Assembly: GCF_900114455.1 (NCBI RefSeq)
Contig: NZ_FOTC01000007.1
Span: 1-64,000, forward strand
From: Halogranum rubrum
GTDB taxonomy: Archaea; Halobacteriota; Halobacteria; Halobacteriales; Haloferacaceae
Length of the DNA: 64,000 bases
Direction of reading: 5' to 3'
Shown here: one piece after another, positions 31,786-36,638 of the stretch
Layout of the letters: every line of letters starts with the position of its first letter
How positions within the stretch are numbered: the stretch's first letter is position 1
The notes under the pieces: generated by a model
Database searches by the model: none
What the model was told of the DNA's origin: nothing
The model's input: the letters and a program-made list of their open reading frames with translations, nothing else
Translations under genes and position numbers: made by a program

Positions 31786-32685
31786 ATGGTCAGTGTCCTC
31801 CTCCCCACCGTCGAGTGGGGCCTCGCCTGCGAACAGGTCGCGAGCCAACTCGGAGCGGACGACGAGTTACTCGTCGTCTGTGACACCGATGCAGACCCCG
31901 TCGCCGGCCACGACCCACCCGAGCAAGTCCGTATCCTCGTCGCCGGCGACCCCGAAGACTGTTCGGGGAAGGCCAACGCCCTCGCCTACGGGATGGAGCG
32001 AGCGACCGGCGACCGATTTCTCTGGACGGACGACGACTTCGACCACGGCGACGACTGGCTGAACCGAGTGAAAGCACTCGCCGACGAACACGGCGTCGTC
32101 ACCGGCGTCCCCGTCTTCGTCGGCGAGGACTGGTGGCGACTCGCCGAACCGTTCTCCGCACTCACCGGGTCGCTGGGGCTCTATCTCGGCGGACAGGTGT
32201 GGGGCGGTTGCGTCACCTTCACCCGTGACGACGTAGACGTAGAGCGACTCGTCGCGGACCTCAGACGGACCGTCAGTGACGACGGGTTGCTCTCGGGGCG
32301 TCTACACGACGTGACCGCCGCGAGGAGCCTGACCGAACAGATTTACGTCGACGGCGACGTCGAGTCCGTCCGCAACCGGATGGTTCGCTTCACGCAGACG
32401 GTGCGGTTCGAGGAGACGTCGAGTACGGCCGGCCTCGTGTTCAGCGTGTTCGCGTTCGCCCTCGCCGGACTCCTGTGGCCGATACCGGTCGCTGGCCTCG
32501 CGACGGCCACCGTCGCTGCCGTGTACTGGTTCTTCGGTGTGCGCCGTTCGACGTTTCTGCTCGCGTACCCCGCGCTCCTCGTTGCGCCGTTGCTCGTCGC
32601 CTACGGACTGCTCGCCACCGAGTTCGAGTGGGGTGGCCGTCGCTACCGCTGGCGCGACGTCTACGACGTGACCGTTCTGGAGTAG
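31786..32685 (+). CDS. Membrane glycosyltransferase family 2 (GT21-like)
   Basis: 299 residues. An N-terminal GT-A domain starts VSVLLPTVEW; the acceptor/nucleotide motifs are GKANALAYGM (about 64-73) and WTDDDFDHGDDW, a DxD-type metal site. GGQVWGGCVTF fits the ceramide glucosyltransferase-like group. The C-terminus has about three membrane helices (210-235, 240-255 and 258-280). It probably transfers a sugar to a lipid at the cytoplasmic face. The MinD-like gene follows after about 50 bases. Confidence 0.85.
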   Translation: MVSVLLPTVEWGLACEQVASQLGADDELLVVCDTDADPVAGHDPPEQVRILVAGDPEDCSGKANALAYGMERATGDRFLWTDDDFDHGDDWLNRVKALADEHGVVTGVPVFVGEDWWRLAEPFSALTGSLGLYLGGQVWGGCVTFTRDDVDVERLVADLRRTVSDDGLLSGRLHDVTAARSLTEQIYVDGDVESVRNRMVRFTQTVRFEETSSTAGLVFSVFAFALAGLLWPIPVAGLATATVAAVYWFFGVRRSTFLLAYPALLVAPLLVAYGLLATEFEWGGRRYRWRDVYDVTVLE

Positions 32686-32737: not shown

Positions 32738-33400
32738 ATGCTCGCAATCGCCGGTGGGAAGGGAGGAAGCGGGAAGACCACCACGACGCTCGGTCTGGCC
32801 GCGGCGTTCGACGGGCCGACGCTCGTCGTCGACGCCGACTGTGACATGCCGAATCTCCACGCACTCGCTGGCGTCGACCGGACGCCGACGCTGGCCGCCG
32901 TCGACGACGAGACGGAACCAGCGTGCGTCGCTCACGACCACCCCGACGAGTCGCACGTGAGCGTGTTGCCCGCGCCGACACGGAGCGACGCCGAAGCGAC
33001 GGCCACGACGAGAGACGACGAGATGCGACGAGTGCTCGGTCGTCTCCAGTGCGAACGAGGTGGGGTTCGGACGCTGGTCGACTGCCCGGCGGGGGCCAGT
33101 GTCGACGCCGTCGCACCGCTCCGCGTCGCCGACGGCGTTCTCGTCGTCTCGCCGCTCTGTGCGGCCGCCCTCCGCGACGCTGCCAAGACAGCCGCGATGG
33201 CACGAACCCTCGGTACGCCCGTCGTCGGCGCGGTGCTGACGCGGACTCGTCTTCGCCCACCCGGTGTCGCAGACCTCCTCGACTGCTCGGTGGTGGCTTC
33301 TATCCCCGAAGTTCGTCCACCGGTACTCGACGACCGTGTCGTGCGTGCGGCGTACGCGCGGCTTGCGTCGACACTCACTGCGGAGGAAGACCTATTATGA
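32738..33400 (+). CDS. MinD/ParA-like ATPase
   Basis: 220 residues from ATG 32738 (a GTG at 32696 would add 14 residues). Deviant Walker A GGKGGSGKTTTTLGL from residue 6, with the signature Lys8; VVDADCDMPNLHAL (about 33-46); Walker B TLVDCPAG. The MinD branch is likely, because of CDMPN and the short length. The C-terminus lacks an obvious amphipathic membrane-targeting helix. Haloarchaea carry several MinD paralogs that position motility structures and other cell features. It is followed at 21 bases by a RecA-like protein without Walker A. Confidence 0.88.
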   Translation: MLAIAGGKGGSGKTTTTLGLAAAFDGPTLVVDADCDMPNLHALAGVDRTPTLAAVDDETEPACVAHDHPDESHVSVLPAPTRSDAEATATTRDDEMRRVLGRLQCERGGVRTLVDCPAGASVDAVAPLRVADGVLVVSPLCAAALRDAAKTAAMARTLGTPVVGAVLTRTRLRPPGVADLLDCSVVASIPEVRPPVLDDRVVRAAYARLASTLTAEEDLL

Positions 33401-33421
33401 CTGCGTCGCCAATACGGACGT

Positions 33422-34048
33422 ATGTCTGGCCGCCTGCCGACCGGAATCACGGTGCTCGACCGGCGCCTCGGCGGTGGCATCCCTCCCGGGAGTATCGTCC
33501 TCCTCGAAGCACCACCTGCCAGCCAGTCCGAACTCTTTCTCTACGAGTTCACGGCCACGCGCGGGACGCTCTATCTGACGACCGTTCGCTCGGAGGCGGC
33601 CGTGTCCGACGCGCTCAAACGGGCGAACACCCGCGTCGGCAATCCGACGATTCGCGACATCGGCAGCGACGCACCGCTGGACCACGCGAACCGACTCGTC
33701 GGCGCGCTTCCCGAGGGGGCGAACCTCATCATCGACGTCGTCGACGTACTCGAAGAAGCGGAACCGGCGCGCTACCGGAGTTTCTTGAACGAACTGCAGA
33801 CACAGATCGTCAACACCGACGGTCTCGCGATTCTGCACGCGATGAAAGGTCGCTCCATCCCGAAGAATCGGGACCTGACCGAACATATGGCCGACCTCGT
33901 GTTCGACCTCCAGACGGACATCAAGGGTCAAGAGATAGTCAACCGACTCGCCGTGCCGAAGTTCCGTGGCGGCGCGGCGATGGAAGAGACTATCAAGCTG
34001 AAACTGGCCGAGCAGGTTGCCGTCGACACCAGTCGCGACATCGCCTGA
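33422..34048 (+). CDS. RecA/KaiC-like protein lacking Walker A
   Basis: 208 residues. It opens like RadA/KaiC proteins (LPTGITVLDRRLGGGIPPGSI), but where the P-loop GxxxxGKT should be there is EAPPASQSELFLYEF with no Gly-Lys-Thr/Ser. The Walker B-like strand ANLIIDVVDVL is present and LAILHAMKG follows. ATP hydrolysis is unlikely, so a regulatory or scaffolding role is inferred. Only 21 bases separate it from the MinD-like gene, suggesting a shared transcript and a joint function. Confidence 0.82.
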   Translation: MSGRLPTGITVLDRRLGGGIPPGSIVLLEAPPASQSELFLYEFTATRGTLYLTTVRSEAAVSDALKRANTRVGNPTIRDIGSDAPLDHANRLVGALPEGANLIIDVVDVLEEAEPARYRSFLNELQTQIVNTDGLAILHAMKGRSIPKNRDLTEHMADLVFDLQTDIKGQEIVNRLAVPKFRGGAAMEETIKLKLAEQVAVDTSRDIA

Positions 34049-35663: not shown

Positions 35664-36638
35664 TTACTCTTCGGTCTCTTCGGCTTCGGAGGCTTCGAGT
35701 TCGTCGACGATTTCGTCGGCGTCGACGTCGACGTCTTCGAGAGCGTCCTCGATGTCGGCAGCGCCGCCTGCACCGCCAGCGCCACCCATCATGCCGCCCA
35801 TGCCGCCCATCATACCGCCGGAGCCGTCGATGGTCTCCTGGACGATGACGCGGTCGATGCCGAGTCGCTGCATCATGTCCTGTGCGATCTGCTGCTTGGA
35901 GAACATCCACTGCTGGTTCATCGTCATCTGCGGCGTGGCCTCGATGTAGAGCGTCTCCTTCTCGACGGTGACCGTCTCCGTCTCGGGCTCTGCATCCTCG
36001 TCCTCGTCGTCAGATTCGACGACCTGCTCCTCTTCGACCTCGTCGGTCTCAATCCAGACCTCGGGCGACTGCTGGAGGTACATACCGAGCAGACCCTGTG
36101 CCTGCTCCTCGCGGTCGTCGACGATTTCGACGATTTCGTACTCGTATTCGAGGTCCTCACCCGCGAGCGGGTGGTTGAAGTCGACGCGTGCGCGGCCGCC
36201 GATGATGGTCTCCAGTCGACCCTGCTCGCCGTCGATCTGGACCTGTGCACCGGGGTAGCGGTTGTCTTCCGGAACCTTGTCGGCGGCGACCGTCTTCACG
36301 TCGTCGGGGTCGAACGCGCCGAACGCCTCTTCGGCGGGGATGTCGACGCTGCCCTCGTCGCCGACGTCCTTGCCCATCAGGTCGTCGTCGACGCCCTGGA
36401 AGACGTGGCCTGCACCCACGACGATGACGCGCGGGGCGAACTCGTAGTCGTCGTCGTCGATTCCGGCCTCTTCGGCGACGTCCTGTTTCGTCGTGTCGAC
36501 GACGGTTTCGTCCTCTTTCGTGCGAACCGTGTAGTCCAGCTTGACGAAGTCGCCGTCCTGAATTCCCGATTCTGTCTCTTCGACCTCTTCCTCGGTGTCC
36601 GGCGCGTCGGCCGTCTCCGCCTGCTGTTCGTCACTCAT
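35664..36638 (-). CDS. FKBP-type peptidyl-prolyl isomerase (SlyD-like), long archaeal form
   Basis: 324 residues from ATG 36638; the 90-residue extension is not credible. FKBP core: GDFVKLDYTVRTKEDETVVD, VIVVGAGHVFQGVDDDLMG, an IF-type insertion (GSVDIPAEEAFGAFDPDDV) and RVDFNHPLAGEDLEYEYEIV, ending near 175. The C-terminal 150 residues add a second domain (VTVEKETLYIEATPQMTMNQ), a Met/Gly-rich linker (GGMMGGMGGMMGG) and an acidic tail. It catalyses proline isomerisation and probably acts as a chaperone. Confidence 0.93.
   Translation of the reverse strand: MSDEQQAETADAPDTEEEVEETESGIQDGDFVKLDYTVRTKEDETVVDTTKQDVAEEAGIDDDDYEFAPRVIVVGAGHVFQGVDDDLMGKDVGDEGSVDIPAEEAFGAFDPDDVKTVAADKVPEDNRYPGAQVQIDGEQGRLETIIGGRARVDFNHPLAGEDLEYEYEIVEIVDDREEQAQGLLGMYLQQSPEVWIETDEVEEEQVVESDDEDEDAEPETETVTVEKETLYIEATPQMTMNQQWMFSKQQIAQDMMQRLGIDRVIVQETIDGSGGMMGGMGGMMGGAGGAGGAADIEDALEDVDVDADEIVDELEASEAEETEE

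Follow-up and report, generated by a model that had tools for sequence, protein, structure and literature searches.

The stretch of DNA analysed here, referred to below as the window, comprises positions 1 to 64,000 of contig NZ_FOTC01000007.1 of Halogranum rubrum. It contains two co-directional genes (Table 1), the first of which encodes a MinD-like ATPase and the second a protein with a RecA-like fold; the initial annotation had described such a succession, with only 21 bases between the genes, and the open reading frames (ORFs) agree with it. The two ORFs share one frame and are separated by a single TGA codon, as also seen from the full-span match of a profile built on natural fusions. The MinD-like ORF matches Pfam CbiA (E 6e-12, 46 bits for a cut-off of 25.4) and the archaeal MinD subfamily model (E 1e-23), the latter with 83.6 bits, below its cut-off of 201.75. 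Its Walker A motif reads MLAIAGGKGGSGKTT, and this deviant KGGSGKT signature, together with the MinD-family profile match, places the protein in the MinD/ParA family. A gene for a family 2/21 glycosyltransferase (window 31786-32685) is found upstream of the pair and a convergent gene for an FKBP26-type isomerase (window 35667-36560) downstream.

Table 1. Features of the MinD-like gene and its downstream partner in the window.
Feature	Position	Strand	Basis
MinD/ParA-family ATPase, probably MinD3 type (220 aa)	32738-33400	+	Pfam CbiA, MinD tree
Intact deviant Walker A of MinD, residues 7-15 GKGGSGKTT	32756-32782	+	translation
Walker B-type aspartate D115 (DCPAG) of MinD	33080-33082	+	invariant, 25-sequence alignment
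Spacer between MinD and DUF7125, 21 bases	33401-33421	+	ORF list
DUF7125, KaiC/RecA fold without P-loop (208 aa)	33422-34048	+	Pfam PF23442, AlphaFold2 model
Site of lost P-loop, residues 30-37 APPASQSE	33509-33532	+	DUF7125 alignment, n=126
R56, near the place of the KaiC catalytic-glutamate stretch	33587-33589	+	alignments to PH0284, SSO2452, KaiC
Walker B-type aspartate D105, retained	33734-33736	+	126/126 DUF7125 domains
KFR (K180, R182), the K-x-R of the KaiC-family KMRG stretch	33959-33967	+	aligned to KMRG/KFRG
Conserved C-terminal tail DTSRDI (D202-I207)	34025-34042	+	DUF7125 alignment

The second ORF belongs to the Pfam family DUF7125 (PF23442; E 3e-100, 333.8 bits for a cut-off of 29.1, residues 4-208), its match to the KaiC family of Pfam being weaker (E 2e-8). 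Its N-terminal opening, SGRLPTGITVLDRRLGGGIPPGSIVLL, resembles that of RadA and KaiC, with EAPPASQSELFLYE where these proteins carry their P-loop; the RadA/KaiC-like start devoid of a P-loop that had initially been noticed is thus real. The AlphaFold2 model of the protein (69 aligned sequences; pLDDT 91.8, pTM 0.89) resembles KaiC, SSO2452, PH0284 and FlaH/ArlH (Foldseek E 3e-13; VIA, with best figures of Z 22.7 and 2.8 Å over 203 residues), and a KaiC/RecA fold is also what a profile search against PDB sequences indicates. It is by this fold (Foldseek, VIA) that DUF7125 belongs to the KaiC/RecA superfamily. The best match among NCBIfam models is ArlH (E 4e-7), well below its cut-off (NF052589, 29.9 bits for a cut-off of 215), and the ImuA and Elp4-like PAXNEB families give weak matches (NCBIfam, Pfam).

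We aligned 126 DUF7125 domains, namely 34 encoded beside a MinD gene, 31 haloarchaeal copies with no adjacent MinD, 43 fused copies and 18 from outside the class. The Walker A motif GxxxxGK[ST] is absent throughout: none of the 126 has GK[ST] at the P-loop window, so that the intact P-loop in close homologues by which the first reading could have been overturned does not occur among them. Other residues are retained, i.e. E37 (in 122 domains), R56 (118), D105 (126), K180 (125) and R182 (125). D105 aligns with the Walker B aspartate, R56 lies near the glutamate stretch of KaiC and K180-R182 falls on the KMRG strand; we take the matching KaiC positions to be catalytic, the K-x-R strand presumably acting as a trans-acting finger in the KaiC family. 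The lack of GK[ST] in 126 domains, combined with the conservation of the residues that replace it, indicates an old and uniform loss of the P-loop rather than decay in one genome.

In a tree of 88 MinDs, those of the pairs and of the fusions form one clade (support 100), apart from the MinD1, MinD2 and MinD4 types. The literature first suggested an identification of our pair with MinD2 (HVO_0595) and HVO_0596 of Haloferax volcanii, which had to be rejected. According to the available part of PMC11621097, MinD2 of H. volcanii was mutated at K16 (AAG) and D117 (GAT). In genus g7, which we infer to be Haloferax, a MinD-sized gene with K16 (AAG) and D117 (GAT in three of four) is distinct from the DUF7125-linked MinD, which carries K13; MinD4 of this genus also has K16, but is far longer and has the aspartate codon GAC. 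Moreover, the neighbour of the MinD2-type gene is not DUF7125: the gene that follows overlaps it by 4 bases and encodes about 194 aa (L231-L234), and the HVO_0596 candidate of L232 (194 aa) matches no Pfam family at 0.001. The map spacing in G078 fits the order MinD1-MinD4-MinD2-MinD3, provided that g7 is Haloferax. The MinD of the window is probably of the MinD3 (HVO_1634) type, and not the published MinD2; on MinD3/HVO_1634 we found nothing beyond its listing in the open-licence PMC papers. The published absence of a phenotype for HVO_0596 should not count as a result on the MinD3-DUF7125 pair.

MinD lies directly upstream of DUF7125, on the same strand, in all of the 30 best matches within the class, which all come from the family of the window (f1); two of these 30 adjacent pairs have a split frame. 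Beyond this family, we sampled one genome for each of 30 genera of other families, and MinD is adjacent in 14 of these. The 16 others comprise ten with no MinD3-type match better than 1e-45, five whose fused or in-frame copy lies at another place and one with a MinD3 that is not within 1.5 kb, i.e. an unfused MinD3 adjoins DUF7125 in 14 of the 15 sampled genomes having one. The neighbourhood survey that had initially been advised finds the pair mostly linked when it is viewed from an unfused MinD3, contrary to the refuting condition that it be unlinked in most genomes, and DUF7125 frequently unlinked (16 of the 30 sampled genomes) when it is viewed from the other side. In some pairs that otherwise look normal, the DUF7125 or the MinD3 gene is split (L038/L060 in G114, L224/L237 in G267 and L225/L230 in G040), perhaps through sequencing errors or recent decay.

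The two proteins are also found as a single chain. Of the 391 class genomes, at least 55 carry a MinD-DUF7125 fusion with a single stop-free frame, at 56 places, using a profile derived from three fusions and counting as near-full-span a match that extends to position 386 or beyond of 429; these figures are minima, as the scoring covered the top candidates of each genome. One further fusion, in G058, was recognized as an open frame by direct translation. Carriers include Haloterrigena salina, Halorientalis persicus, Haloarcula rara and Halobiforma haloterrestris. In the 47 fusion ORFs that we translated (some of them near-duplicates) the MinD half always comes first, 13-23 residues separate the matched domains, and KGGxGK[ST] is retained in the MinD half of 46. 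When a natural fusion is modelled with AlphaFold2, both halves are well folded (pLDDT 91.8), but the pTM is 0.59 and there is no confident interface between them. In three loci (L123, L127 and L128), the fusion has a second MinD immediately downstream on the other strand, and this one groups with the MinD1 type.

The MinD halves of 43 fusions form one clade (97) inside the pair-plus-fusion clade. For the fused halves, the DUF7125 tree calls for three changes, at least two of them forced by the starred branches, because two fusions of genus g63 group with an unpaired copy. Judging from these trees, which omit near-duplicates and some long or broken loci (four fusions among them: L128, L261, L274 and L287), either fusion would have arisen twice or the DUF7125 half would have been exchanged. 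The neighbour survey (Pfam, with shadow ORFs opposite DUF7125 masked) gave carbamoyltransferase, FKBP, YlbF and glycosyltransferase genes as frequent haloarchaeal neighbours of DUF7125, and these suggest no mechanism. Many paired and unpaired copies have such neighbours in common and thus share one locus. Since paired and unpaired DUF7125 alike have FKBP or, in other families, a divergent carbamoyltransferase beside them, MinD3 seems to have been either gained or lost at a locus that stayed the same. At locus L030, Com_YlbF takes the upstream position.

The C-terminal tail distinguishes the fused copies from the others. The motif D[TS]S[RK][DEQ] is found in all 34 paired copies, in 23 of the 31 unpaired and in 13 of the 18 non-haloarchaeal ones, against four of 43 fused ones. 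Among the 39 fused copies that could be assigned to genomes, the four with a tail are the sole DUF7125 match of their genomes, and each of the 35 tail-less ones shares its genome with at least one other match. At the sequence level, this suggests that each genome may need one tail-bearing DUF7125 copy, although, allowing for descent, the contrast amounts to about two fusion lineages versus one.

Over the 391 class genomes, DUF7125 is present in 377 and MinD3 in 277 (at E 1e-45, with two split and two fused genes added to those present). Both occur in 271 genomes, DUF7125 only in 106, MinD3 only in six (in four of which the MinD match is borderline, between 1e-45 and 1e-50) and neither in eight. 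DUF7125 is therefore the core and MinD3 the addition. Outside the class, we picked the 20 best-scoring DUF7125 loci, and no MinD was seen in their flanks (about 2-2.5 kb where the contig allows). In eight of these 20 loci, PilC (the T2SSF platform) is encoded upstream of DUF7125 on the same strand, at a distance of 0.9 kb in G412, and PilB was seen upstream of PilC in seven of the eight; neither was seen in the 12 others within the stretch examined. The order PilB-PilC-DUF7125 recurs in the four genomes (out of four) of the outlying haloarchaeal families f5 and f11, and in two loci examined from genus g61 DUF7125 is divergent from a PilB-PilC pair. Pfam T2SSF and PilB3_C were confirmed on four example loci. 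In most haloarchaea DUF7125 is not adjacent to pilB4; the genome of the window has PilB4-PilC4 (L330), with the motor genes and DUF7125 on different contigs (C8 and C14).

Which PilB is involved was examined by means of a tree. PilB3 forms one clade (100), and the DUF7125-linked PilBs join the clade of haloarchaeal long PilBs (99) with a support of only 86; the linked PilB of L345 is a long branch apart, and L350 and L351, with no PilB in the stretch, are absent from the tree. The PilB4-type open frames span 705-1406 aa, with extensions around the core. PilB4 has been described, in the part of PMC4858521 at hand, as carrying additional domains at its N and C termini that are particular to Halobacteria, and the long clade fits PilB4, a putative name that it receives from this description and from map spacing rather than from comparison with a named sequence. 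Long-branch relatives of PilB were also seen in L340 (G174, a genome without DUF7125) and L341 (G317, a genome with a very divergent DUF7125).

A profile of the long clade detects a PilB4-type ATPase in 23 of 23 DUF7125-positive genomes (719-885 bits; split in G068), hand-picked from the 377, and in none of the 14 DUF7125-negative ones, where the best score of 494 bits is that of a PilB3. The positives include 12 genomes without MinD3, all of which have PilB4; the negatives, from seven genera, are every surveyed genome without a DUF7125 match over the cut-off. As PilB3 is kept in eight of the 14 negatives and ArlH in seven, roughly half of the losses concern PilB4 specifically; in the six others a PilB3_C match is absent too, and the loss there is not PilB4-specific. 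Compared with MinD3, the PilB4-type ATPase is the steadier partner of DUF7125. The role of PilB4-PilC4 itself is still to be established, as stated in the part of PMC12542753 that we could use.

These distributions bear on the role proposed in the initial annotation, in which the dead RecA-fold protein is chiefly a partner of MinD that activates or places it, the connection with pili then being historical. Adjacency to and fusion with MinD3 are what such a partner would display, and MinD3 is seldom without DUF7125 (six of 277). However, DUF7125 does without MinD3 in 106 genomes, no MinD was seen in the flanks examined of the 20 loci outside the class, DUF7125 and PilB4 are lost together in seven genera and all 12 tested DUF7125 genomes without MinD3 have PilB4. 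We consider this reading unlikely as a whole: the partnership stands, but a regulator of MinD would hardly be the core gene of the two and persist in 106 genomes from which MinD3 is missing. As to the direction, a MinD acting on a pilus-motor component is more likely than DUF7125 regulating MinD.

The same 106 genomes could be invoked for DUF7125 being a general KaiC-like regulator, of transcription or signalling as proposed for CirA, that stands near pilus genes by regulatory convenience, with MinD3 as a passenger fused through the loss of one in-frame stop. Its common neighbours, carbamoyltransferase and FKBP, are indeed unrelated, and a single in-frame stop codon is all that separates the two ORFs of the window. 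A passenger would not be expected, however, to remain fused across many species with both halves conserved and 13-23 residues between the matched domains, nor do 43 fusion MinD halves in one clade (97), against DUF7125 halves that need at least two changes, or the coincident losses of PilB4 and DUF7125 fit this scheme, which we regard as improbable.

We may wonder whether the resemblance to ArlH means that the pair belongs to the archaellum, DUF7125 being a second ArlH and MinD3 positioning archaella in the manner of MinD2 and MinD4. Among NCBIfam models DUF7125 matches ArlH best, albeit far below the cut-off, and MinD3 is associated with ArlH across the genomes (both in 231, MinD3 only in 46, ArlH only in 64, neither in 50; odds ratio 3.9, uncorrected for descent), so MinD3 may have a role in the archaellum. 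Nevertheless, the genome of the window has MinD3 and DUF7125 with no ArlH match at 1e-45, DUF7125 occurs without ArlH in 89 genomes and ArlH without DUF7125 in seven, and the quadruple minD deletion equals the minD2/4 deletion for motility in the part of PMC11621097 available. The distribution of ArlH across genomes speaks against an archaellum partner as the main reading, and we judge this explanation of the pair very unlikely. The genome of the window also contains MinD2- and MinD4-type genes without an ArlH match at 1e-45, and these types may there have a task unrelated to archaella.

The likeness of DUF7125 to ArlH (FlaH) lies in the shared KaiC/RecA fold (VIA Z 20.6 and 20.2) and in the genes that it is ordered with, those of a PilB-like ATPase and of the T2SSF platform: the ArlH-like arrangement, with a PilB/ArlI-type ATPase and the platform, is found for DUF7125 in families f5 and f11 and in part of the loci outside the class. 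ArlH has a RecA fold, forms hexamers, binds ATP, autophosphorylates, modulates ArlI and leaves it when phosphorylated, according to the part of PMC8978795 available to us. The differences are that ArlH binds ATP and autophosphorylates whereas the 126 DUF7125 copies all lack the P-loop, and that DUF7125 tracks the genomes with PilB4 rather than those with ArlH. SulA, ImuA and Elongator Elp4-6 are RecA-fold proteins, some of which are said to act without a P-loop as binding partners; to our knowledge, none of these is in an operon with MinD or fused to it.

That archaeal pili are broadly connected with proteins of the KaiC family and with MinD-like ones is already known. In the accessible part of Makarova 2016 (PMC4858521), the KaiC families arCOG01171-01175 and the MinD-like arCOG00589 (FleN/MinD) are linked to archaeal T4P, two of arCOG01171-01175 perhaps sharing a transcript with VirB11/TadC in Methanomicrobia, and DUF7125 plausibly falls within this set of arCOGs. 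In the same part the KaiC families are considered ATPases, and nothing is said of a lost P-loop, of a MinD-DUF7125 fusion or of co-loss with PilB4. A MinD with a conserved co-directional downstream gene also has a haloarchaeal precedent in MinD2 (HVO_0595) and HVO_0596 of H. volcanii, for which AlphaFold 3 gives an ipTM of 0.83 (part of Patro 2024, PMC11588486); this is nonetheless a separate pair, with a downstream gene that overlaps by 4 bases and in L232 has no Pfam family. In the open-licence PMC papers we found no experiment on the MinD3-DUF7125 pair and no article on DUF7125 by name, HVO_0596 was met by name in the MinD2 paper only, and the available parts of those on KaiC, MinD and PilB in haloarchaea contain no mention of the pair. 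As far as this literature shows, it is new that the family as a whole has lost its P-loop, that DUF7125 is paired with MinD3 or fused to it and is lost together with PilB4, and that the tail is distributed as it is among the copies.

Building on the observed operon, co-loss and fusion, we propose that DUF7125 accompanies the PilB4-PilC4 motor in the manner of ArlH, although blind to nucleotide, and that MinD3 probably acts on DUF7125, a reading to which we give a probability of about 60%. DUF7125 would be a pseudo-ATPase of KaiC/ArlH fold standing in the cytoplasm by PilB4-PilC4 as ArlH does by ArlI-ArlJ. With the P-loop and the catalytic glutamate stretch lost, and the Walker B aspartate, the K-x-R strand and the tail retained, it might still form a ring or a docking surface in direct contact with PilB4; unlike ArlH, it should not switch through ATP binding or autophosphorylation. 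MinD-family proteins dimerise upon ATP binding. Given this property and a DUF7125 with no P-loop of its own, MinD3 could supply a switch or an address at PilB4: we infer a direction from MinD3 to DUF7125, in which ATP-bound MinD3 would place, dock or release DUF7125 at PilB4 and thereby set the place or the time of assembly of these pili. That MinD3 substitutes for the missing nucleotide switch is speculative, and as MinD3 is missing from 106 of the 377 DUF7125 genomes it is no universal switch. The fusion model, with its uncertain arrangement of the domains (pTM 0.59), also counts against this mechanism.

This could be extended, tentatively, to an outsourced switch, in which a motor-companion ring that has no ATP switch of its own is run by a recruited MinD, first in an operon and then by fusion. 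A fused copy beside a separate DUF7125 would drop the docking tail and serve as a MinD adaptor in mixed rings, and a sole fused copy would keep its tail. We hold this extension to be possible and rather less probable than the motor-companion reading. The latter would give a first functional assignment, with PilB4-PilC4 as the probable motor, to a family of unknown function present in 377 of 391 haloarchaeal genomes, and a candidate cargo to a haloarchaeal MinD for which no phenotype was found in the parts of the literature available. The fusions hold MinD and its presumed cargo adaptor in one chain, and how a MinD finds cargo besides the division ring could thus be tested on them.

Finally, it should be noted that genus g61 has a second, more divergent DUF7125-like gene in three loci (L062, L063 and L064); no MinD was seen in the flanks examined, and the place of the P-loop is occupied by a sequence of the ALGDAASAVELLGY type.
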